Shown piece by piece: positions 15 through 63,993 of a DNA stretch of 64,000 bases. A program made the translations under genes and the position numbers. Positions within the stretch are counted from its first letter, which is position 1; each line of letters begins with the position of its first letter. This stretch comes from Acidimicrobiaceae bacterium (lineage in GTDB: Bacteria > Actinomycetota > Acidimicrobiia > Acidimicrobiales > RAAP-2): the NCBI GenBank assembly GCA_003169675.1, contig PNAT01000054.1, forward strand, positions 1-64,000. Reading direction: 5' to 3'. Under the pieces are notes generated by a model. The model searched no databases and was not told the DNA's origin. It saw nothing but the letters and a program-made list of their open reading frames with translations.

Positions 15-365
15 GTGACGGGCCGTGTAGATTCCCACCTGGATGTTCACGTCGCCGCTGCGCTCGATCCGCTGGGGACATTGCTCGGATCAGAGCCCTT
101 TGCCACCACGCCCGCCGGCTACAAGGAACTGGTGGCCTGGCTCGAAGGGTTCGGCGACGTCGCCAAGGTTGGCGTGGAGGGCGCGGGTTCCTATGGTGCT
201 GGACTGGCACGGTTCCTTCGTTGTCGAGGGGTCCAGGTCATTGAAGTCGATCGGCCCAACCGAGCGGCCCGACGCCGAAGTGGCAAGTCCGACCCCCTCG
301 ACGCCATCGAAGCGGCCCGGGCTGCACTGGGTGGTCGAGCCCTCCTATTTCTTCTGTTCCGTTAA
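15..365 (+). pseudogene. IS110-family transposase, N-terminal fragment
   Basis: The first 105 or so codons read as the N-terminal DEDD catalytic domain of an IS110-type transposase: a DSHLDVHVAAALD start, the GVEGAGSYGAGL segment with the conserved Glu, and KSDPLDA with the conserved Asp. Similarity stops abruptly after AALGGRA, near base 340, and the frame then runs into unrelated residues and a stop. Full-length family members are about 350-420 aa and have a C-terminal transposase_20 domain that is missing here. This is a dead remnant next to the integrase/attachment scar. The upstream end of the element may lie outside the window. Confidence 0.85.
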
Positions 366-1089: not shown

Positions 1090-2976
1090 GTGACCGAGCC
1101 CCCTCAAAGACTCGCCGGTGGGCTCGGTGATGCCGATCGGGCATTCCGCTCGGCGGAGCAGGGCGGGACCGGAAAGGACTTCGACCCAGCGGCCGTCCGG
1201 GCCAAGTACCTCGAAGAGCGGGACAAGAGGATCGTTGTGGGTCGAGCGGACATCCGGGAGCTCGATACAGACGTCCAATTCGCTGACTTCCGTAAGGACC
1301 CGTTCAACCCCGTCGAAGATCGGGAACCTGTCGTCAACGAGGTCGATGCGGTGATCGTGGGTGGAGGCATCGCCGGTGTCCTCGCAGGTGCCAACCTCCG
1401 CAAGGCCGGCGTCCAGCGGATCCGGATCATCGACGAAGCGGGTGGCATCGGGGGTACCTGGTATTGGAACCGGTATCCCGGGGTGATGTGTGACGTCGAG
1501 TCCTACATCTACATGCCAATGCTCGAGGAACTCGATTTCATGCCGTCGCAGCGCTACGCGGTCGGGGAGGAGATTCGGGGCCACCTCGACGCCGTGGCCC
1601 AGCGATTCGACCTGAACGGCGATGCGCTCTTCCACACGCGCGTCATGTGCACCGAGTGGCTTGAGGATCGATCTCGATGGAGCGTTCGTACAGACAGAGG
1701 CGACGTGATCGCCTGCCGATGGTATGTCTTGGCCACCGGCATCTTGAATCTGATGAAGCTCCCGACGATTGAGGGCATGGAGTCGTTCACCGGACCATCG
1801 TTCCACACGGCACGATGGGACTACGAGTACACAGGTGGCTCTCCTTCTGAGCCACTTGACCGCTTGTCGGACAAAACCGTGGCATTGATCGGAACTGGGG
1901 CCTCGGGAATCCAGTGCCTGGCGCCGCTTGCCGAATCAGCCAAGCACGTTTACGTCTTTCAGCGCACGCCATCGGCTGTGGGGGTGCGGGACAACCGTCC
2001 GACCGAACCCGGTTTTGCCGAACGTCTCGAGCCCAACTGGCAACAGGATCGAATGGACAATTTTCAAGCAACCATTCTGGGCGTGCCTGTCGGCGCTGAC
2101 CTCGTCGATGACGGGTGGACCCACCACTATGCGTTAGTGCGCAACCCGCCCAGACCCGAGGGCATGGCCGCGCCCGAATACGCTCGAAGCGCCGAAGAGG
2201 TCGACTTCCGGATCATGGAGACACATCGCCAACGCGTTGCGGACACCGTCTTGGATGCCGCGACTGCCGAAATCCTCAAACCCCAATACCGGTACCTCTG
2301 CAAGAGACCGTGCTTCCACGATGAATTCCTGCCGGCGTTCAACAATCCCAATGTCACGCTGATCGATTGCCCAGCTGGAATCGAGCGGATCACACCGAGC
2401 GGACTCGTCGTCAACGGTGAGAAGTTCGACGTTGATTGCATCATCTATGGCACGGGGTTTGAAGCGGAGATGACGTCCCTGCCTCGACGCGCCCACCACG
2501 TCATTGTCGGGCGGGACAATCTCGACCTCGCGACGAAATGGTCAGGGGGAGCCTCCACCCTCTTCGGCATGCTCATTCGCGGCTTCCCCAACATGTTCGT
2601 CATGCCGGCCCCAGGTCAACAAGCAGTCATCACCGTGAATTACACCCAACTCGCGGTTCTCGGTGCGGAATTTGTTGGAAGAATGGTTTCCATTCTTGAA
2701 GAGCGTGGCGCTGACGTTTTCGAGGTGAGCGCGAAAGGTGAGGAGTCGTGGACGCGTCAGATCGTCGAATCGACCGTAGATGCCAGCGGCTTCATGTCAG
2801 CCTGTACGCCCTCCCGTCTCAACTTCGAAGGCCATCCTGAGCAGGCGAACCCGCGAAACGGCAACTACGGGGGTGGTGTAGGTGACTGGTTCGGGTATCG
2901 CGAGTTGTTGGACCGGTGGCTCAAGGCAGAGTCATTCGACGGCCTAGAGCTCACGATGCGGTCCAATTCGATATGA
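1090..2976 (+). CDS. Baeyer-Villiger / flavin-containing monooxygenase
   Basis: This 628-aa protein is a class B flavoprotein monooxygenase that should insert oxygen next to a ketone using FAD, NADPH and O2. It has an N-terminal extension of about 85 residues, an FAD Rossmann motif (VGGGIAG, about residues 90-96), the Baeyer-Villiger fingerprint FTGPSFHTARW (FxGxxxHxxxW, about 233-243) and a second nucleotide motif IGTGASG near 267. Length and N-terminal extension fit steroid or cyclopentadecanone monooxygenase-like members. GTG start after GAGGAG. Its stop overlaps the next start as ATGA, so it is translationally coupled to the SDR at 2973. The substrate is presumably a cyclic or side-chain ketone (inference). 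Confidence 0.9.
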   Translation: MTEPPQRLAGGLGDADRAFRSAEQGGTGKDFDPAAVRAKYLEERDKRIVVGRADIRELDTDVQFADFRKDPFNPVEDREPVVNEVDAVIVGGGIAGVLAGANLRKAGVQRIRIIDEAGGIGGTWYWNRYPGVMCDVESYIYMPMLEELDFMPSQRYAVGEEIRGHLDAVAQRFDLNGDALFHTRVMCTEWLEDRSRWSVRTDRGDVIACRWYVLATGILNLMKLPTIEGMESFTGPSFHTARWDYEYTGGSPSEPLDRLSDKTVALIGTGASGIQCLAPLAESAKHVYVFQRTPSAVGVRDNRPTEPGFAERLEPNWQQDRMDNFQATILGVPVGADLVDDGWTHHYALVRNPPRPEGMAAPEYARSAEEVDFRIMETHRQRVADTVLDAATAEILKPQYRYLCKRPCFHDEFLPAFNNPNVTLIDCPAGIERITPSGLVVNGEKFDVDCIIYGTGFEAEMTSLPRRAHHVIVGRDNLDLATKWSGGASTLFGMLIRGFPNMFVMPAPGQQAVITVNYTQLAVLGAEFVGRMVSILEERGADVFEVSAKGEESWTRQIVESTVDASGFMSACTPSRLNFEGHPEQANPRNGNYGGGVGDWFGYRELLDRWLKAESFDGLELTMRSNSI

Positions 2977-4622
2977 AGGCCCGGCAGCGGGTCGGAGTCG
3001 TGACCGGGGGCGGCGGTGGGATCGGCGCAGCGATCGCCGAGGAGATGGGTCGCTCGGGTTGGTTCGTGGTGACCGTTGACCCGCTCGTCACCCTCGACGG
3101 GACGGACAGAGTCCCCGCGCCCGAAGAGACGACCGCGGATCGGATCGTGGCTGGTGGCGGAGCGGCGATGGCTTCATCGGTATCTGTCACCGATCGAGGA
3201 GCGTTGGACGCTCTCTTTTCCGACCTGGCCAAGGACCACGGGCCCCTTGATGTGGTCGTCAACGTCGCCGGAATCACGAGGCAGACGGGTTTCGCCCATG
3301 GGTCCGCAGATGACTGGCGCGCGGTCCTTGACGTCCACCTCCAGGGATTCCTGAACATCTTGGGCGCGGCGCTCCCTCACATGACGGAACAAGGTCACGG
3401 CGCCATCTTGGGAGTCACGTCGGGCTCTGGCTGGCGGGCCGCCAACGCCGGGGCGTACAGCTGCGCCAAACGGGCCATCGCCTCACTCGTCTGGCACATT
3501 GGTCGGCAGACGCCATCTGGCGTCACCGTCAATGCCATCTCGCCCATCGCGGCAACTCGCATGGTTGCGGCCGCCGCCGAACGTGCGCGCAAGGCCGGGA
3601 CCGACGGGGGGGGCGGCGGTCTCTCCCTCTTCGACTCCATGCCTCAACCCGGGGATCTCGCACCGCTTGGCACGCGTCTGGTTGGTGACACGTTCAGGTG
3701 GTGCTCGGGTCGAGTGATCTTTGCTGGCGGTTCAGAGGTTGCCGTGGTCGATGAGCCGAGGCTTCTCGAAGTGGTGCGCACCGATGGTGCGGTGCCCGTC
3801 TCCCAGGTTCTGGGAGCCGCGGTGCCCCGAGCTCTGGCTCCGGCCGAAGCGCACCAGGCAAGCGAAGGAGGCGGGAACCCCCGATTTGGCGCTCTGTTCG
3901 ATCAGCCGATCGACGCCACGACGCCGCCCGCCCACATCGGTTCGTGTGTTCTGGTCAGCAACAGGCACGTACTGACCGGCAGTATCAAAGCGGCCTTAGA
4001 GGCGCGGTCGATCGTGTGCCATCACGTACCCGTCACGAGCGGCTTCACAGAAGCGGCCGATGCCCTCAAGCGCGTCTTGGAGACAAACGGGTCGGTCGAC
4101 GCGATCGTGCTCGCACCAGATGGATCCGTGCCCAGCTCCCTACATGGTGGCTGGGAGCGAACTCTTGAGGAACACGTGGGCCTTGCCCGGCAGATCGAAG
4201 ACGACGCTGGCTGGGCTCGGGCGGCATCGGATTACGGAGCGACAACGGGGCGAACGGTTCGGCTGCTCACGCTTGTCGACGCAGTCGATTCAGGCGGGCG
4301 AAGTCGCGCCCAAGCTTCGGCTCAACTTTCGCGCGCGGCAAGGGATGTGACAGATGGCAGGGTTGTGGCCTTCACCATAAGCCTCGAAGACCCCGACCGA
4401 CTCCTCGAAGGCACGCTCGGCGAAATCGTCGCCTTCCTCCTTGGTGATTCGGAGACGACCGCGCTTGCCGGCGCCGAACTCGTGCTCCGCGCCGGATGGT
4501 TTGGGATTCGCAGTCATCCTCGGCCGATTGGGAGCATCACCTACGGTGGTCCGGCCCTGCCCGAGTGGTTCGATGAAACCATCGAGGAGATTCTCCGTGC
4601 CAGCGAGATTCAGGGGGCTTGA
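2973..4622 (+). CDS. Two-module short-chain dehydrogenase/reductase-like protein
   Basis: I start this 549-aa protein at the ATG inside the ATGA overlap; the frame is open further upstream. Residues 1-260 are a classical SDR: TGGGGGIG cofactor loop, VNVAG, and a Ser-Tyr-Lys set in TSGSGW...AYSCAKR. From about residue 320 a second Rossmann-like unit follows (GSCVLVSNRHVL, VDAIVLAPDG, TLEEHVG), with SDR-like order but no TGxxxGxG and no YxxxK. It resembles a duplicated SDR whose second half has lost catalysis. Usual SDRs are about 250 aa. The likely role is oxidising or reducing an alcohol/ketone before or after the Baeyer-Villiger step. The function of the second half is unknown. Confidence 0.8.
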   Translation: MKARQRVGVVTGGGGGIGAAIAEEMGRSGWFVVTVDPLVTLDGTDRVPAPEETTADRIVAGGGAAMASSVSVTDRGALDALFSDLAKDHGPLDVVVNVAGITRQTGFAHGSADDWRAVLDVHLQGFLNILGAALPHMTEQGHGAILGVTSGSGWRAANAGAYSCAKRAIASLVWHIGRQTPSGVTVNAISPIAATRMVAAAAERARKAGTDGGGGGLSLFDSMPQPGDLAPLGTRLVGDTFRWCSGRVIFAGGSEVAVVDEPRLLEVVRTDGAVPVSQVLGAAVPRALAPAEAHQASEGGGNPRFGALFDQPIDATTPPAHIGSCVLVSNRHVLTGSIKAALEARSIVCHHVPVTSGFTEAADALKRVLETNGSVDAIVLAPDGSVPSSLHGGWERTLEEHVGLARQIEDDAGWARAASDYGATTGRTVRLLTLVDAVDSGGRSRAQASAQLSRAARDVTDGRVVAFTISLEDPDRLLEGTLGEIVAFLLGDSETTALAGAELVLRAGWFGIRSHPRPIGSITYGGPALPEWFDETIEEILRASEIQGA

Positions 4623-4626
4623 GGGC

Positions 4627-5493
4627 GTGACGGACCAAGTGAGCCGGGTCGTGGACGCCCATATCCATCTGTGGGACCCAGCGAACTCTACGTGGTATCC
4701 CTATCTGTCCCATCCCCCCGATGACAGCGAGGGTGATCCCTCAAGAATGTTTCGGCCGTTCGATGTCGCGACATATCGCTCAGAGAGCGCTCATTGGAAT
4801 GTCGAGAAGTTTGTCAACGTTGCCGCCGCCACCGGCCGACACTCCGTTGACGAATCGATCGAACTCGACCGAACAGCCGCTGCGAATGGCGGTCCGCACG
4901 CCATAATCGGCGGCTTGCCGCCAACCGACACCATCGCTGAAGCGGTCCACCTTCTAGACCAGCAGATGGCCGCACCTCTCTTTCGAGGTGTACGACCGAT
5001 GGGCGGGAATCGGGAGCCCGTCCCGCCTCAGGAGATTCTGCATGCCCTCAAAGACAGAAACCTTGTCTTCGAACTCATGGCGCGCGGCGATGAACTCTTG
5101 CCAGCAGCCCTGCAACTTGCCCGAATTGATAGAGGTTGCATCGTCATTGAGCACACCGGGTGGCCTCGTTCGGGTTCCGATGACGAGTTCGCCATGTGGA
5201 AACTGGGCATCCAGGCCTTGGCGGACCTCGGGCCAGAGGTCGTCTGCAAGCTGTCCGGACTCGCCATGCCGCTGAAGAGTACGGAGCGAGACAAGCTCGC
5301 CCCCTGGCTCGAGTATGCGATTGACATTTTTGGCGTTGAACGATGCATGTTCGCGAGCAATTTCCCCGTCGACGCGACGTTTGGGTCCTTCGATGATTTA
5401 TACGAGACTTTCAGCGCTGTGACGGCGGGACTTGACGCACTCTCGCGGGAGAAGCTTTTCGCGGCGACGGCGGAACGCGTTTACCGACTCTAG
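4627..5493 (+). CDS. Amidohydrolase_2 family lactonase/hydrolase
   Basis: This 288-aa TIM-barrel metal hydrolase (PF04909 type) has the N-terminal metal motif DAHIHLWDP, followed by WYPYL as in fuconolactone and pyrone-dicarboxylate lactonases, a C-terminal CMFASNFPVD (the metal-site D region) and a closing helix AERVYRL. The GTG at 4627 follows GAGGGC and lies 4 bases after the SDR stop; the frame is open further upstream but overlaps the SDR. Third gene of the monooxygenase operon. Because Baeyer-Villiger enzymes make lactones or esters, a lactonase role is attractive, though unproven. Confidence 0.85.
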   Translation: MTDQVSRVVDAHIHLWDPANSTWYPYLSHPPDDSEGDPSRMFRPFDVATYRSESAHWNVEKFVNVAAATGRHSVDESIELDRTAAANGGPHAIIGGLPPTDTIAEAVHLLDQQMAAPLFRGVRPMGGNREPVPPQEILHALKDRNLVFELMARGDELLPAALQLARIDRGCIVIEHTGWPRSGSDDEFAMWKLGIQALADLGPEVVCKLSGLAMPLKSTERDKLAPWLEYAIDIFGVERCMFASNFPVDATFGSFDDLYETFSAVTAGLDALSREKLFAATAERVYRL

Positions 5494-5764: not shown

Positions 5765-6136
5765 GTGAACGACGCGTTGAGCATGGCGAATGAGTCCCGA
5801 GCCATCGACGCGAAGTCAGTTATTCATTCGGACCACGGAAGTCAGTTCACGTCGTGGGGCTTCAGTGAGCTGGTCCGCAAACATCGCCTCTTGGGCTCGA
5901 TGGGCACCATTGGCGATTGCTACGACAACGCCCCCATGGAGTCCTTCTGGGGCTCGATGCAGATCGAACTGCTCAACCGAAAGAAGTGGCGGACCAAGAT
6001 CGAGCTGTCGATCGCCATCGCCGAGTGGATCGAGCACTTCTACAACCCCGAGCGCCTCCACAGTTCGCTCGGCTACGTCCCTCCAGAGGAATTAGAGGCC
6101 CTACACTTGGCCACAGCAGCATCCATCCAGGCCTAA
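5765..6136 (+). pseudogene. IS3-family transposase, C-terminal fragment
   Basis: The 123 codons match the end of an IS3 OrfB integrase core: VIHSDHGSQFTSW (second catalytic Asp), GDCYDNAPMESFWGS (catalytic Glu), and the family ending FYNPERLHSSLGY. The first catalytic Asp and everything N-terminal are missing; the 270 bases upstream hold no matching frame. Downstream, GGTCCGGAAAACAGGGTCA near 6151-6169 resembles an IS3 terminal repeat, but I find no partner copy on the left. An inactive remnant. Confidence 0.88.
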
Positions 6137-48833: not shown

Positions 48834-50462
48834 TCAGACGTCGTTGCGTTGAAGGAGGAGCACCCCTGAAGGTGTACCGCCTCCGGAAGTCACGACAGCA
48901 GTCGCGGCATCGGAAACTTGTCGAGCCTCAGCTTCATGACGAAGTTGGATGACAGCCTCATAAAGAAAGCCGAAGCCGTGCGTACGTCCCTCGGAGAGTT
49001 GCCCACCGTGAGGATTCACCGGGAGCTCTCCGTCGAGGGCAATACGGCGACCGCCGTCCAACCACTCCTGGGCCTCACCGAACCTGCAGAATCCGAGGGC
49101 CTCCAACCAGGAGATGGCATTGAACGTGAAGCCGTCGTAGAGCAGGGCGACGTCGACGTCGGACGGCTGGAGACTGGTTCGTGACCAGAGGTGCGCGGAC
49201 TGGCCGATCACTTGAGGCTCGTGAGTGATCGTGTCCTGATCCCACGAGACTCGCTCGGTAATCTGAGTTCCGACCGCTTCAATGCGGATGCCCATTCGAG
49301 GAAGGTCTGACACCACCGACGCGTCCGAGACGATGACGGCGATCGATCCATCACATGGAATATCACAGTCATACAACCCGAACGGAGAGGTAATGGGTCG
49401 GGCCGACATGTAGTCGTCCATGGTCATTGGGTCCCTGTAGATGGCCGCCGGGTTACGTGACGCATTCATTCGGCCATTGAGGGCGATCATTCCAAGCATT
49501 TCGCGGGTGGCGCCATAGCGATGGAGATATTGATTGGCGTTCATGGCGATCCAGTTGGAAGCCGACATGGCGCCGAAGGGCATCCGCCAGGCCGATGGTC
49601 CCGACGAGCGCCCACCACCGGAGCCACCGAGGCGAAGCGTGGCATACGTAGATTCCCACACCGTGCGGAAGCACAAGACATGACGACAGAGACCGGATGC
49701 GACTGCCAGCATGGCGGCGATGACAGAGCCACCTGGACCTGGAAGGTCTCCGCCGCCATTGGTCCAAGTGGGGTGGAGCCGGAGCGCCTCCTCAACAGCC
49801 GTGATCCCCCCTTCGCTCATACCCATTCCCGCATAACCCGGATAGGTTGAAAGTCCGTCGATGTCTTCGAGTTGCAAACCAGCATCAGCAACGGCCTTGA
49901 GGCAGGCATCGATGGTCAGCGAGAGGGGATCAACCATCAACCGCCGGCCGAGCGTCGATCGACCCACACCCGAAAGGACGGAACGGTGTTCGAAACGATC
50001 GTCACTCAAGGGTGCCCGTGCAACCGGGCGCCGGGGTTCTGGAACAACGTCCGCTTCCGACTCCTGGCCCGTGAGCTCAAAAAGAGGTATCCAGATGTCC
50101 TCTTCGTTGGTGAACCTGACGACGACCTGCTGACCGATGTGGACCTCCTCGGGGTCACAATTGACGATGTTGGTAGTGAGCCGGACCCCTGGTTCTTCAG
50201 CCAGCGCCACCACGGCGATGACATATGGAGGTGTGAAGTCCGGATGCCATTGGTGTTGATTCACGGTGTATCCGATGATCGTGCCACGACCAGAAACAAT
50301 GGTCGGTTCATACTCTCGACTCCGACACACCGGACAGATCGGCACGGGAGGATGAACGAGGGTGCCACATTGCGTACAGCCTTGGATGCGAAGCTGTCCG
50401 TCAACACCGGATGTCCAGAACCACTCGGTGGCCGGTGTCAGTTCGGGAAGGGGCCTCATCAC
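48834..50462 (-). CDS. DUF35 (Zn-ribbon/OB-fold) fused to Ltp2-like thiolase
   Basis: A 542-aa fusion. Residues 1-145 are a DUF35 unit: rubredoxin-like zinc ribbon CTQCG and CPVCRSRE, then an OB-fold. From about residue 165 a thiolase fold follows (SGVGRSTLGRR, YDCDIPCDGSIAVIVSD, YDGFTFNAISWLEALGFC, then NPHGGQLSEGRTHG). The final catalytic Cys of ordinary thiolases is missing (SGGGTPSG). In mycobacterial steroid side-chain cleavage, Ltp2 is a retro-aldolase that needs a separate ChsH2 DUF35 domain, so this protein may combine both parts. ATG 50462 overlaps the preceding stop. Confidence 0.87.
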   Translation of the reverse strand: MMRPLPELTPATEWFWTSGVDGQLRIQGCTQCGTLVHPPVPICPVCRSREYEPTIVSGRGTIIGYTVNQHQWHPDFTPPYVIAVVALAEEPGVRLTTNIVNCDPEEVHIGQQVVVRFTNEEDIWIPLFELTGQESEADVVPEPRRPVARAPLSDDRFEHRSVLSGVGRSTLGRRLMVDPLSLTIDACLKAVADAGLQLEDIDGLSTYPGYAGMGMSEGGITAVEEALRLHPTWTNGGGDLPGPGGSVIAAMLAVASGLCRHVLCFRTVWESTYATLRLGGSGGGRSSGPSAWRMPFGAMSASNWIAMNANQYLHRYGATREMLGMIALNGRMNASRNPAAIYRDPMTMDDYMSARPITSPFGLYDCDIPCDGSIAVIVSDASVVSDLPRMGIRIEAVGTQITERVSWDQDTITHEPQVIGQSAHLWSRTSLQPSDVDVALLYDGFTFNAISWLEALGFCRFGEAQEWLDGGRRIALDGELPVNPHGGQLSEGRTHGFGFLYEAVIQLRHEAEARQVSDAATAVVTSGGGTPSGVLLLQRNDV

Positions 50463-57546: not shown

Positions 57547-60393
57547 CTATGGCGCGAGTGCTGGGCCAACACCCTTGGGAGCATCCTCGGGCATGGAGAT
57601 ACCCGACGTTGCGGCTCCGCTCCGATTGATTGCCCGCTCATCCGTTCCGAGATAGCTGGCGATCACCCGCGGGTTGTCACGGACTTCGGTGGGTGAGCCT
57701 TCGGCGATCACTGCTCCGGCTTCGAGGCAGTAAACCCGATCGCTGATGCTCATGATGAGGGGCATATCGTGCTCAATCAAGAGAACCGAAGCTCCGAGCT
57801 GGCGTTGCACCGTGACGATGAGTGGACCAAACGCCTCGGTCTCGCGCTGGGCCAGGCCGGCGGTGGGTTCGTCGAGGCACAGTACCTTGGCCTTGAGGGC
57901 GAGAAGTCCGGCCAGCTCCACCACCCGTCGGGTGCCAGTAGAAAGGTCGCCGATGTGATGGTCCCGCCAGTGAGTGAGACCGAGTAGTTCGACGAGTTCG
58001 GCCACCTCGGAACGTTCGCGCCGACTTCGGCGCGTCGCCCGTGGCAGGGCGACTGCCGTCGAAAAGACATCCGTCCACCCCCCCGCTTCCGAGAGCGCCA
58101 CCAGAAGGGTTTCGGTGACCGTCAATTCAGGGAAAAGGGTGGCCGTTTGAAACGTTCGACCAAGTCCAAGTGAAGCTCGATGGGCCGACGCCTTGTCCCC
58201 GACTTCCAGGCCTCCTAGGCGAATCGAGCCTGAGCTGGGAACGAATCCCCCCACCGCATTCATGAGTGTCGACTTGCCGGCTCCGTTGTTTCCGATCAGC
58301 CCAACGATCTCCCCGCTGCCCACGGCCAGGGTGACATGGTTCACCGCCGTGTTGCCACCGAAGGACACACGCAGATCGGACACAGCCAGAGCGGGAGTCG
58401 CTCTATCCATGGGTTCAGGCCCTGGTCGAATTGCCCGAGCAGGTTGTCGTGCCTGCTGAGGGGCAGAATCCTTGCCGAAGCGACCATCCGCCCAAGCCAA
58501 GAACGCGTCACGAACGTCGAAACTGATCTGATTGAGCCCGCGAGGGAAATACAGCAAGATCGCCAACAGTCCGATACTTGACGAGAGGAGTCCAAGTACT
58601 TGGTTGCTTGGAGCCAAGGCAGGGATCCCAATCACCCAAATCGCCCCGATGATTGCGGCGGTGACCGAGCCCATGCCGCCGATGACCACCATGGCCACAA
58701 GACCCAGCGAGCCGTCGACCAAGAAGAAACTTCCGGGCCCCGAGAAGGCAACATTGGCATAAGCTCCGCTGAGCAGAGCACCGCCCAGACCGGCGAGCGC
58801 ACCGGCGATTGAAAATGCCCGGATCTTCTCCCACGTCGGTCGCACCGTGAAAGCGGCCGCTGCGTTCTCGTTGTCGCGAACCGCCATTATCGAACGGCCC
58901 ACTCCGCTGTCCCTGAATCTGCTCATGACCAGGAGAACCACGGCCAAGACCACGAGCACCACGTAGTAGTAGGTGAGCTGTCCAGGGAACGACAATGAAA
59001 AAAGCTTCCCCGGTGCAAAAGGAAGGTTTGAACCGTCTGGCGACTGTCCGCTCAGGATGGGAAGGCCGAAGAAGTACTGCTGTGCGGCCAACGCAAACAC
59101 GAAGGTGACGACCGCAAGATTGAGACCGCGGACTCGCAGTGAGCCGAGACCGAGAATGGCAGCCAGCAAGGCCACCGCGATTGTCGTCAGGGCAATCGCA
59201 ATCCAAAATGGTACCCCGTCTTCCACCATGCGAGCGGCGAACAAGGCACCCAACCCAGCAAATGCCATCTGCCCCAAGGAAAGCTGTCCAAGCCACCCCG
59301 TGAGCACGGTGAGTGAAGTGGCACAGATCGCGAAGGCCAATACTTCGGTGAAGATCTGCTGCGTCGAGGGAAGTGTGAAGATGAGGGGGAGGACAATGGC
59401 GATCACTGCCAAAAACAGAACTCCACTCTTATTTGCATTGCGCGCCCACCGACGGGACTGGAGGCGCACCGGAATCGGGCGGGCCCTCGGAGTGAAGGCG
59501 AACACTTCCTGTTCGTCGCCCTTTTCGCGGTTGAATCCGACTGCAATGAGCACGGTGATCAGGAGTAACAGATTGATCAGTCCAGGAGTATTGATGAAGT
59601 TATAGGCCACCACGCTCTGGGCTATCCCGATTACGAGACTGGCAATGATCGCTCGGCGAAAAGATGTCATGCCCCCGATGACCGCCGCTACCAACGCCAG
59701 TGAGAGCGTCTGTGGTCCGAGGGTGGTCACGTCCCCCGCCGAACCCGACTGCCCGGCAATCAGCACGACCGATAGAGTCGAAAGAGCGGCCGCGAGCGCC
59801 CACACCAACGTCGAGACCACCTTGGGACTGATGCTGGAGAGGCGCGCCAGCTGTGGATTGCTGGCGCAGGCCTTGACGGTCTTTCCAAGCGTGGTTCCGT
59901 CCAGAAACCAGGTCAATCCAATGAGCGTGACCGGGACCAATATCACGATCGAAAGGTCAGATCCGCGGACCTGCACTCCGGCCAATGTCCATAACCCGCT
60001 GATGGCGCTCGGGTAGTGAAGACTGAGGTTGGTCGGTTGCGGAAGCTTGAATGCAATCGCCTCCGCAATCTGTGCAATACCAATCGTTGCGACCAGGACG
60101 ACGACCCGGGGCGACTTCCGCAATCGGCGAATCACCGTCATATCGACAATTGCCCCGAGCAAGAGTCCAGCACAGAGGGCGACGGAGAGTGCCACCCAGA
60201 ATGGCACGTGGTACTGCACGACCAGCAGCGATAGGAGCGTCGCGGCGACGACACCCATGTTTCCAACAGCGAAGTTGATGATCTTGGTCGCTCGGTACAC
60301 CAGGACCACACCTACGGTAATGACCGAAATGGCCAGCCCCTGGACGAGACCATCGAAGACCACTTGACTGTTGATCCACGTGACGCCGAGCAT
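57547..60393 (-). CDS. LivH-LivM-LivG fusion: two permeases and an ATPase in one chain
   Basis: A 948-aa protein with three parts. LivH-like permease (about 1-290): TKIINFAVGNMGVV, then MTVIRRLRKSPRVVVLVATIG. LivM-like permease (about 318-640): LTGWLGQLSLGQMAFAGLGA, SLRVRGLNLAVVTFVFAL and AAFTVRPTWEKIRAFSIAG. LivG-like ATPase (about 660-915): Walker A GNNGAGKST, QTATLFPELTVTETL, LSTGTRRVVELAG as signature, Walker B VLCLDEPTAGL and IEHDM. In most bacteria these are three genes. ATG overlaps the preceding stop (TAATG), so subunits are co-made with the MFS-LivF protein. Probably imports a branched-chain or bulky carboxylate substrate. Confidence 0.93.
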   Translation of the reverse strand: MLGVTWINSQVVFDGLVQGLAISVITVGVVLVYRATKIINFAVGNMGVVAATLLSLLVVQYHVPFWVALSVALCAGLLLGAIVDMTVIRRLRKSPRVVVLVATIGIAQIAEAIAFKLPQPTNLSLHYPSAISGLWTLAGVQVRGSDLSIVILVPVTLIGLTWFLDGTTLGKTVKACASNPQLARLSSISPKVVSTLVWALAAALSTLSVVLIAGQSGSAGDVTTLGPQTLSLALVAAVIGGMTSFRRAIIASLVIGIAQSVVAYNFINTPGLINLLLLITVLIAVGFNREKGDEQEVFAFTPRARPIPVRLQSRRWARNANKSGVLFLAVIAIVLPLIFTLPSTQQIFTEVLAFAICATSLTVLTGWLGQLSLGQMAFAGLGALFAARMVEDGVPFWIAIALTTIAVALLAAILGLGSLRVRGLNLAVVTFVFALAAQQYFFGLPILSGQSPDGSNLPFAPGKLFSLSFPGQLTYYYVVLVVLAVVLLVMSRFRDSGVGRSIMAVRDNENAAAAFTVRPTWEKIRAFSIAGALAGLGGALLSGAYANVAFSGPGSFFLVDGSLGLVAMVVIGGMGSVTAAIIGAIWVIGIPALAPSNQVLGLLSSSIGLLAILLYFPRGLNQISFDVRDAFLAWADGRFGKDSAPQQARQPARAIRPGPEPMDRATPALAVSDLRVSFGGNTAVNHVTLAVGSGEIVGLIGNNGAGKSTLMNAVGGFVPSSGSIRLGGLEVGDKASAHRASLGLGRTFQTATLFPELTVTETLLVALSEAGGWTDVFSTAVALPRATRRSRRERSEVAELVELLGLTHWRDHHIGDLSTGTRRVVELAGLLALKAKVLCLDEPTAGLAQRETEAFGPLIVTVQRQLGASVLLIEHDMPLIMSISDRVYCLEAGAVIAEGSPTEVRDNPRVIASYLGTDERAINRSGAATSGISMPEDAPKGVGPALAP

Positions 60394-62627
60394 TATTCGG
60401 GCTCCTGGCCCCCGAGAAACACGGCCCGCGCCAAGTCGTCACGTTCCATCAGGTCTCTGATCGGACCTTCGAAGCGCAGTTGACCCTTCTCAAGGAACAC
60501 CGCCCTGTCAGCGATCGCTGCAGCGACGTTGAGCGACTGTTCGACGATGATGAGCGTCACCCCTTCGGCCTTGAGTCCTTCCACCACTCCAATAAGTTCC
60601 TGGACGACGATTGGAGCAAGACCGAGTGACAGCTCGTCAATGATGAGCACTTGGGGATCATGAAGCATTACGATTGCCAGTGCGAGCATCTGTTGCTGTC
60701 CCCCAGAGAGCGCGTCAGCTCGCTCCTGCCGGCGATCCTTCAAGGCGGGAAACAGCCCGAATACTCGGTCTGTGCGACGGCGAAGCTCAGCGCGATTGGA
60801 GCGGTACATAAATCCACCCATCTCGAGATTCTCCGCAATCGTCATCTCACCGAATACGCCCTTACCTCCTGGAAGGAGATGGATACCAAGGCGGGATCGC
60901 TGTTCAGGGGTGGTGTACGTGATGTCCTGGCCATTGAGGCGCACCACTCCGCGGGACGCGGTTTCAAGGCCAGCGGCGACGCGCAATGCTGTCGACTTTC
61001 CGGCCCCGTTCGTCCCGAGGAGTGCCAGCACCTCTCCTCTCTTCACCTCGAAGCTCAGGCCAAAGAGAATCTGTACGTGACCGTAACTGAAGTCAATCGC
61101 ACTCAATTGCAAGACCGGAATGTCTTCGGGGGCTGCCTCCTGACGCTTGTGCTCCTCCATCTCCTCTTGAAGCTCCACCACCACCAGGGAGAGGTCATTG
61201 CGGATGAAGTGCGCGCTCCGGATGATGAAGAAGGCGCCGATCAAGATGGACGGAATCATGATGATAAGTACCGCAGTGCGCACGCCGAACACGCTGTCAA
61301 ACAAGGCAGCTAACACCGCTCCGCCTGTAGCTCCAACGAAGAAGACATACAGGCCTCCCACCGCAGTGACCATTCCGCGCAGGCGGTAAGGAGCTACCGA
61401 GGTGAGCACCGGACCGACCATTGAAAATGCAGTCAGTAAAAGCACCACGCTCGGGACGCTGAACACTGCCCATAAGACAGCAGTGGGCATGAAGTATTGG
61501 ATGGGAACCAGGAATGCGACCGGTAGGACGACCTTGCCAATCAGGGACAACGCCCGGGTGGGGTCCGTACGGTAGAGGCGGTCGTAGTAGCGCCCGACGA
61601 GCGGCAATGCGACCAAAACGCCGAGGCTGCCAATGGTGCCGATCAGACCGCGCTGGAAGGCGTCAAGATGGAAGCGTTGCTTTAGGTACAAGTTGCCCAG
61701 GACGGGAACCGTGAACAACCCGAATCCGATCGCGGAGAAGGCGATAAGGACCGTCTTGATGGTGCGAATGCGCAGGATCCGTTCAAACGCCGCTTCCATG
61801 GAAGGGGCGGCTGGCGGGGTATCTGTGATGACCTCACCCAGCACTCCTATCTTTTCGAATTGTCCACGTGGCGGTTCGTGGATTCTAAATGTGATGAAGG
61901 CCACGAACACCACAGGTGCCGCCAAGAGGTAGAAGGCCCACCTCCATCCATTTGGGCCGCCCACCGATGTGGCAATGAGGCCGACCAGGATTGGGCTGAG
62001 CGCCGTCGCGGCGCCGGCGCCAATTCCCATGGCCGCACCGATCCGCCCGCGCAGGGTGATCGGATACGTGTCAGCCAGGAGCGATCCATGGACCGTGGCC
62101 GTGCTCGCTTGGGATATCCCGGCCCCGAAACGAGCTAGGAAGAACAAGAAGATGTTGGTGGCCAGCCCTGTGCAAAAGACCATCACTCCGAAAACGAACG
62201 TGGCAACACCAATGATCGGTGCCCGCCGAAGGCGGTCGGCCAGCCAGCCCATCGGCACGATACCCAAGACCAGAAATCCGCCGGAGATCCCGGTCACGAA
62301 CACGATGGCGCCCGTGGTCACGTGGTAAGAGGCCTGGATATTGGGGGCGAGGACGGCAAGACCCGAGCTCTGCAGGTTGTCAAGCGTGACGATGATGGCC
62401 AGGATGAAAAATGTTCGGGTTCCGGCGCTCCGCAGGCCCTCTCGCAACGACATTTGCTCTTCGCTCGACCCCGGCAGCATGTCCTGGGGAAGCAGTACAT
62501 CTTGCGCCAACTCGGCAGCTTGTTGTTGCTCAGCTGTCGGATCGGCGACCAGGTGCGCCAGGTCGGCCGGAGTCAGGGAGCTGGTTGGGCCCGAATCAGA
62601 GGGTCCAGCCACCGTCGGATCACTCAA
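60393..62627 (-). CDS. MFS transporter fused to a LivF-type ATPase
   Basis: From TTG 62627 the protein has 744 aa; an ATG at 62774 would run into the binding-protein gene, and GTG 62612 is another option. Residues 1-57 are acidic and soluble. Then come 12 predicted membrane segments of a major facilitator (GFLVLGIVPMGWLADRLRR, LFFLARFGAGISQAS, LLIGAFF-type TM12 region). From about 505 a LivF-like ATPase follows: GTNGAGKST, LLPGGKGVF, LSGGQQQMLALA, LIIDELSLGLAP and VEQSLNVA. MFS and ABC domains belong to different transporter classes, so this is an unusual hybrid. It lies between the binding protein and the LivHMG fusion. Confidence 0.9.
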   Translation of the reverse strand: MSDPTVAGPSDSGPTSSLTPADLAHLVADPTAEQQQAAELAQDVLLPQDMLPGSSEEQMSLREGLRSAGTRTFFILAIIVTLDNLQSSGLAVLAPNIQASYHVTTGAIVFVTGISGGFLVLGIVPMGWLADRLRRAPIIGVATFVFGVMVFCTGLATNIFLFFLARFGAGISQASTATVHGSLLADTYPITLRGRIGAAMGIGAGAATALSPILVGLIATSVGGPNGWRWAFYLLAAPVVFVAFITFRIHEPPRGQFEKIGVLGEVITDTPPAAPSMEAAFERILRIRTIKTVLIAFSAIGFGLFTVPVLGNLYLKQRFHLDAFQRGLIGTIGSLGVLVALPLVGRYYDRLYRTDPTRALSLIGKVVLPVAFLVPIQYFMPTAVLWAVFSVPSVVLLLTAFSMVGPVLTSVAPYRLRGMVTAVGGLYVFFVGATGGAVLAALFDSVFGVRTAVLIIMIPSILIGAFFIIRSAHFIRNDLSLVVVELQEEMEEHKRQEAAPEDIPVLQLSAIDFSYGHVQILFGLSFEVKRGEVLALLGTNGAGKSTALRVAAGLETASRGVVRLNGQDITYTTPEQRSRLGIHLLPGGKGVFGEMTIAENLEMGGFMYRSNRAELRRRTDRVFGLFPALKDRRQERADALSGGQQQMLALAIVMLHDPQVLIIDELSLGLAPIVVQELIGVVEGLKAEGVTLIIVEQSLNVAAAIADRAVFLEKGQLRFEGPIRDLMERDDLARAVFLGGQEPE

Positions 62628-62712
62628 CCCAACCCCAATCTCCCCATCGTGTACCGCCCCACGACGCCGCAAGTGCCAACGCACCCGGACGTCGTGGGGC
62701 GGACTGATCGAG

Positions 62713-63993
62713 TCACTTCGTCGAGGAAGACGCAGGCACGAGGGTCTTGGATGTCGAAGAATAGGTGACCACATTCACTGGACCGACGGCGTACGGCTGA
62801 TTTGGTCCAAATGACACTGGCCCGCCCGATCCAGGGAAGCTCACGCTCCTCAGTCCATAACCCGCCTTGGCGAAGCTCGCCACCGTCAATTTCTTCCCCG
62901 CTGCATCGGCGATCTTTTGGAACATCGCGAGCTCCTGACAAGCCTGGATCACCGACACTGCAGTGGAGGGAACACTTGCTGCCGTCGGGCTGGTGGGATT
63001 CGGAGGCGGATTGATGGTGTCCGACGGATAGGCCTTGTGGACGATGGCGGCGCACTTCTGCATCGCCGGGTCCTTCCACATCTGGTAGTACGTCGGCTGC
63101 GGACTGGCGGCCAGCACGTTCTCCAGGTACGGGTTGCCTCCCTTGGCCGAGTTGACATACGAGAGGAGGGACGACTCGCTGGTGGTGATGTACTGGGGCT
63201 TATAGGTGCTCTGGTTGTCCAGCAACGCTCGAGGCCAGGTGGTCGAACCCGAACCTCCGACGCCCACCACCACGTTGACGCCGGCGCTCTGGAAGCGCTG
63301 GGCGATCGTCTTGACTTCCTGGTCGGACGCAACCGCATCGGTGGCCACCACGCTGTCTTCGGCCGTCAGGACAACGTTGACGTGCAGCTTCTTGAGTGCA
63401 GACTGCACGACAGCTACCTCGGGCTGGTCGGAGGCTGCGCCATAGAATACCCCGACCTTCTTGCCCTTGAACACCCCTCGCTTGTTGAAGTTGGCGAACA
63501 TCAAGGGATCGAAGGCGGCGCCGGGAGTCAACAGGGTGAAGTCGGGAGCCGCGCTGGCCGGCAAGGCACCGGGCAGGGATCCACCGATCACAAGGGTGTC
63601 GTGGATGGCCTGGTAGCAGTCAGGAAAGACCGGAGAGAAGGCCATGAAGATATGGTCATTCTCGGTCAACGTGGAACACGATGCTGTCGCATCTGCCGCA
63701 ATAGACGGGTTCATTTCGTCATACGTGACAACAACCTTTCGCCCGTCGAACCCGCCGTGCGTATTCATGTAGTTGGATATGGCGGTGTACGCGTCGGGAA
63801 AGCTGCCCTCGTCAATCGTCACACCCAGGCTACGCAGAGCGACGAAATTCACGTAGGGCACGCCAACGCTGATGGTTGTTGCCGTGACACCCTGGTCGGC
63901 AGGGCTCGATGCGGTGGCCGACGCCGGACTCGTCACCAGCATTGTCCCCAGCGCAGTGACCAGAGCTGCCGCGGCCGGAAGTGCCTTTCGCAT
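62713..63993 (-). CDS. LivK-type substrate-binding protein
   Basis: A 426-aa periplasmic-binding-protein-like protein (Peripla_BP_6 type) that captures the substrate for the downstream transporter. The Sec signal peptide is MRKALPAAAALVTALG and so on with a likely cut after SPASA near residue 27; there is no lipobox Cys, which is unusual for a cell-anchored binding protein. The mature part has ISVGVPYVNF, GGFDGRKVVVTYDEMNP, a FYGAASDQPEV lobe and VNVVVGVGGSGSTTWPRALL. It is the first gene of the operon; its upstream region lies beyond the window. Confidence 0.9.
   Translation of the reverse strand: MRKALPAAAALVTALGTMLVTSPASATASSPADQGVTATTISVGVPYVNFVALRSLGVTIDEGSFPDAYTAISNYMNTHGGFDGRKVVVTYDEMNPSIAADATASCSTLTENDHIFMAFSPVFPDCYQAIHDTLVIGGSLPGALPASAAPDFTLLTPGAAFDPLMFANFNKRGVFKGKKVGVFYGAASDQPEVAVVQSALKKLHVNVVLTAEDSVVATDAVASDQEVKTIAQRFQSAGVNVVVGVGGSGSTTWPRALLDNQSTYKPQYITTSESSLLSYVNSAKGGNPYLENVLAASPQPTYYQMWKDPAMQKCAAIVHKAYPSDTINPPPNPTSPTAASVPSTAVSVIQACQELAMFQKIADAAGKKLTVASFAKAGYGLRSVSFPGSGGPVSFGPNQPYAVGPVNVVTYSSTSKTLVPASSSTK

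Follow-up and report, generated by a model that had tools for sequence, protein, structure and literature searches.

The window, by which we mean the whole stretch of 64,000 nucleotides that was analysed, carries an operon of three genes encoding a type I Baeyer-Villiger monooxygenase (BVMO), an SDR built of two modules (hereafter its N half and C half), and a lactonase-like hydrolase, whose features are listed in Table 1. The first-pass annotation had placed the two-module SDR in this reading frame and described it as translationally coupled to the BVMO. The frame agrees with that description in start, stop and length, and the SDR ATG does overlap the TGA of the BVMO frame, an arrangement that would couple translation of the two genes. 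The GTG start of the hydrolase follows 4 nt past the SDR stop. Fragments of IS110-type and integrase-core transposases lie on either side of the operon, at window positions 15-365 and 5765-6136.

Table 1. Features of the three-gene operon, in positions of the window.
Feature	Position	Strand	Details
Type I Baeyer-Villiger monooxygenase (BVMO)	1090..2976	+	628 aa, GTG start
ATGA overlap of BVMO stop and SDR start	2973..2976	+	read from sequence
Two-module SDR ORF	2973..4622	+	549 aa; ATG 2973, stop 4620-4622
Catalytic SDR module, residues 1-262	2973..3758	+	adh_short E 1.1e-31 and invariant motifs
Linker, residues 263-317	3759..3923	+	lower conservation, 5/55 positions invariant
Probable degenerate SDR module, residues 318-549	3924..4619	+	profile comparison with SDRs and motif loss
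R443-S-R-A-Q447, approximate YxxxK position	4299..4313	+	profile alignment
Amidohydro_2 hydrolase, lactonase-like	4627..5493	+	288 aa, GTG start, PF04909

The product of gene 1 carries both type I BVMO fingerprints, FxGxxxHxxxW[PD] at 233 and [AG]GxWxxxx[FY]P[GM]xxxD at 121, along with two Rossmann motifs. Its closest NCBIfam model is PtlE (NF045818), against which it scores 632.7 bits, under the equivalog cut-off of 1100 for pentalenolactone D synthase, and its closest PDB chain is 5mq6, which we take to be PockeMO. The gene following the SDR, for which a lactonase-like product had been proposed, belongs to a family that contains lactonases: Amidohydro_2 (PF04909) matches at E 2e-23 with 84.0 bits against a gathering threshold of 26.4, while the L-fucono-1,5-lactonase model NF052480 reaches 69.8 bits against a cut-off of 400, which makes the protein a distant relative of that enzyme. 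These hydrolases have an invariant Asn where 4dlf has an Asp after beta-8, a difference that speaks against lactonase activity. Judged by its family, the third gene may encode a lactonase.

The same domain arrangement had been suggested as something to seek beside other BVMO genes, and the order BVMO, two-module SDR, hydrolase recurs across genomes in the neighbourhoods examined, which comprised 22 loci at the level of the window's order and 7 at the level of its class. The two-module SDR is inherited together with the BVMO and the hydrolase, with few exceptions: the BVMO lies directly upstream at all 28 loci whose contig reaches there, and the hydrolase directly downstream at 26 of the 27 that are readable, the exception being L093, which lacks a hydrolase. 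By start-codon assignment, the 4-nt overlap between BVMO and SDR is present in 18 of 21 order-level relatives. Paralogous BVMO loci, 13 in number, all lack both the two-module SDR and the hydrolase, and the BVMOs of the cassette form one clade (support 0.97) that takes in just one further sequence, the tandem copy from a cassette locus. Distances of the cassette parts correlate (r 0.87-0.94), as is also expected from shared ancestry alone. A separate search for the hydrolase subfamily in 118 of the order's genomes gave 13 strong hits, all in carriers of the C half. A weaker homologue, 41% identical (G090, L108:1218-2141), adjoins single-module SDRs with no BVMO on its 8 kb contig, and the wider hydrolase family is for this reason not BVMO-specific.

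Some loci vary on this plan. At L105:1393-4696, two BVMO copies stand in tandem ahead of the two-module SDR, and at L056, L059 and L060 a second, more distant BVMO adjoins the cassette. Five relatives have ORFs of roughly 1000 aa with the appearance of BVMO-SDR fusions; the upstream part of these ORFs is an out-of-frame read-through, the BVMO being encoded in another frame, and in the four ORFs scanned with Pfam the SDR was the sole match. The open-licence literature yielded no paper describing this cassette.

Of 298 genomes from the window's order, 26 carried the C half, as did 17 of 395 sampled from its class and 2 of 397 sampled from its phylum, both of the latter belonging to the window's order; these counts rest on sampled genomes, many of them drafts. 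Among the sampled genomes it was found only within the window's own taxonomic class, the window genome being the sole carrier in its own family, and no match to it was obtained on plasmid records at E 0.01. Its absence from the other sampled members of the family and the transposase fragments flanking the operon make horizontal gain of the operon possible.

Acyl-CoA ligases are found repeatedly next to the cassette, at 11 loci, as is a second amidohydrolase, at 7; enoyl-CoA hydratase and cytochrome P450 genes also recur there, and beta-oxidation genes lie near it. Beyond the operon, the window itself holds genes for acyl-CoA dehydrogenases, CoA ligases and oxygenases, for the most part identified by inspecting the ORFs. 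The CoA ligase, P450 and beta-oxidation genes fit a route in which a hydroxylated cyclic compound passes through ketone and lactone to a hydroxy acid that is then activated with CoA. Further along the window, three other ORFs were characterised by eye: positions 48834-50462 appear to combine a DUF35-type zinc/OB domain with a thiolase-like domain, a pairing known from some steroid side-chain pathways; a single ORF of 948 aa at 57547-60393 resembles branched-chain amino acid type permeases fused to an ATPase; and a single ORF of 793 aa at 60393-62774 resembles an MFS-type transporter with an ABC ATPase.

Within the two-module protein of 549 aa, the Pfam matches are to SDR families and cover residues 9-249; the remainder has none. 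The N half displays the TGxxxGxG and NxAG motifs of the SDR superfamily, as TGGGGGIG (T11-G-G-G-x-G-I-G18) and N97-V-A-G, and the Ser-Tyr-Lys triad (S150, Y162 and K166); apart from V98, which is nearly invariant, these key positions do not vary among the 21 aligned sequences. The claim that the first half has all SDR catalytic residues thus stands for the triad and fails for the tetrad Asn of helix E, which is replaced by an invariant His122. Asp36 suggests a preference for NAD. A search of the genome's contigs gave generic SDR matches only, and the closest PDB match of the N half is 2et6, an MFE-2 type SDR that also has His at the tetrad Asn. Because 2et6 is a (3R)-hydroxyacyl-CoA dehydrogenase sharing this His, and because beta-oxidation genes are close by, the SDR might have a hydroxyacyl-CoA as its substrate, or act at a step later than the BVMO and the hydrolase, in the manner of MFE-2 dehydrogenases, with the C half still serving as a structural partner. 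We nevertheless consider this unlikely, since sequence similarity among SDRs is a poor predictor of substrate and the strict linkage to the BVMO fits an alcohol-to-ketone step just ahead of that enzyme.

The SDR-like part of the second half starts near residue 318, and residues 318-549 match no Pfam or NCBIfam family at cut-off; weak Pfam matches (ACT and others) were dismissed as noise. Profile-profile comparison with hhalign aligned the C half to the N half with a probability of 78% (P 1.9e-5), which rises to 87% when 29 sequences are used (range 77-87%). Compared with 38 independent SDR sequences, the C half aligned over 201 collinear columns (P 2.1e-5) with a score of 41.7, against 26 for the best of 57 control families, which are what remains of 58 clusters of sequences from the retrieved loci once the one holding the SDRs themselves is set aside. 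The profile comparison also pairs W394 and H401 of the C half with W115 and H122 in the N half. SDRs account for four of the five weak PDB profile matches, none significant alone, and the PKS KR prefix model gave a sub-threshold match in the C halves of 5 of 21 relatives (best E 0.0052). The profile comparisons, the PDB profile hits and the W394/H401 alignment lead us to regard the C half as most likely a decayed, divergent SDR, an assignment that we make with moderate confidence and that is supported rather than proven; the 201 collinear columns agree with the original proposal of two modules of which the second is a degenerate SDR. That the C half is instead an unrelated alpha/beta domain merely resembling an SDR seems improbable to us. 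Its sequence identity to SDRs is only about 15%, and Foldseek ranked sugar-binding proteins first for a single-sequence AlphaFold model of alternating strands and helices, a ranking that is not interpretable at the low confidence of that model (mean pLDDT 49.9); the collinear match, far above all controls, and the predominance of SDRs among the PDB profile hits argue the other way.

The second half had been described as lacking the cofactor glycine motif and YxxxK, and this extends beyond the window copy: none of the 29 C-half homologues has TGxxxGxG or NxAG, and YxxxK is matched just once among them. At the YxxxK position most C halves read R-S-R-A-Q, with R445 kept in 29 of 29 and Q447 in 26 of 29. 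Having lost the motifs for the usual dinucleotide binding and acid-base chemistry, the C half is, as far as its motifs indicate, catalytically dead. Despite that loss, certain W, D, R, Q and H residues remain conserved. The first-pass annotation had named two outcomes that would speak against it, alignment of the second half to an unrelated family and lack of conservation among relatives; both were looked for and neither was seen. The C halves of relatives share 31-55% identity with the window copy, and 21 of their positions are invariant in the 21-sequence alignment, even though C halves differ from one another, on average, by 1.55 times the pairwise distance found for N halves.

Among the invariant positions are the polar residues R416, R445, Q451, R454 and H515, which might mark a regulatory module, in line with the suggestion of the first-pass annotation, or a ligand-binding one, or a donor of substrate-binding residues as Arg1164 of SDR4 is in malonyl-CoA reductase (PMC10470521). 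Such a role appears distinctly unlikely, given that curated-family searches matched the C half to no known sensor family and that conservation by itself does not separate ligand binding from structural roles such as packing. The C half might also be a docking module, tethering the SDR to the BVMO or the hydrolase and allowing intermediates to be handed over. This would suit a domain confined to loci with a BVMO, and also the residues of types W, D, R, Q and H that stayed conserved after the catalytic motifs were lost, but packing on the N half would be expected to conserve them equally and locus L093 has no hydrolase, and we hold this very unlikely.

We lean, with modest confidence, towards an SDR alcohol dehydrogenase with a pseudo-SDR structural half, feeding the BVMO and then the hydrolase. 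The N half (residues 1-262) would use NAD+ to oxidise a secondary alcohol, probably a cyclic or polycyclic one, to the ketone. The C half (residues 318-549) would be kept as its structural partner, a built-in half of a pseudo-dimer, and would serve to stabilise the catalytic module or to shape its pocket. The ketone would be handed to the co-translated BVMO, where insertion of oxygen would yield a lactone or ester, and the hydrolase encoded by the third gene would open this product to a hydroxy acid destined for CoA activation and beta-oxidation. In sum, the operon probably turns cyclic alcohols into ring-opened acids, the structural role of the C half, the order of the reactions and the class of substrate being what we infer. 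The first-pass reading is upheld in part, namely in its two modules, its degenerate SDR half, its coupling to the BVMO and its hydrolase from a lactonase-containing family, an arrangement that we find to recur across genomes. It would be a bolder step, and in our estimate a highly improbable one, to see in the pseudo-SDR half an undescribed, class-confined domain family that physically ties the dehydrogenase to the BVMO and the hydrolase in a channelled ring-opening unit.

As a recurrent, naturally linked set of genes for the conversion of alcohol to ketone, lactone and acid, the cassette offers a lead for biocatalysis. Its conserved pseudo-enzyme half can be removed, so that effects on stability, assembly or substrate range are directly testable.

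Inactive partner domains beside catalytic SDRs are already known, and by analogy with them a structural partner would have closer precedents than a regulatory role. In malonyl-CoA reductase, SDR2 and SDR4 are inactive and are termed auxiliary domains, with Arg1164 of SDR4 supplying substrate binding (PMC10470521). The SDR1-SDR2 half of that enzyme places a catalytic SDR ahead of a non-catalytic one in one chain, as here; in this comparison, made by description only, malonyl-CoA reductase has four tandem SDR domains and reduces malonyl-CoA, whereas the present protein has two modules in 549 aa and its gene adjoins a BVMO and a hydrolase. FabG4, a high molecular weight FabG, likewise combines an SDR domain with a non-catalytic, flavodoxin-type domain in one chain and is NADH specific via an Asp (PMC6008564), but its extra domain is N-terminal and not C-terminal. 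PKS ketoreductases pair a catalytic subdomain with a catalytically inactive Rossmann structural subdomain (PMC5331325) and thus share with our protein an inactive partner, as well as the sub-threshold KR prefix match seen in five relatives; their inactive part precedes the catalytic part and sits within a polyketide synthase, whereas the putatively dead half described here is C-terminal. The closest solved relative of the N half, 2et6, has two SDR domains per chain, both of which match the catalytic N half, whereas the second module here appears degenerate. The BVMOs PtlE/PntE and PockeMO belong to the same family as gene 1, which differs in scoring under the PtlE cut-off and in its catabolic context. 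What is distinctive of the present system is the C-terminal position of the presumed dead half, its occurrence as a single pair with the catalytic module, and the nearly constant presence of BVMO and hydrolase genes alongside.
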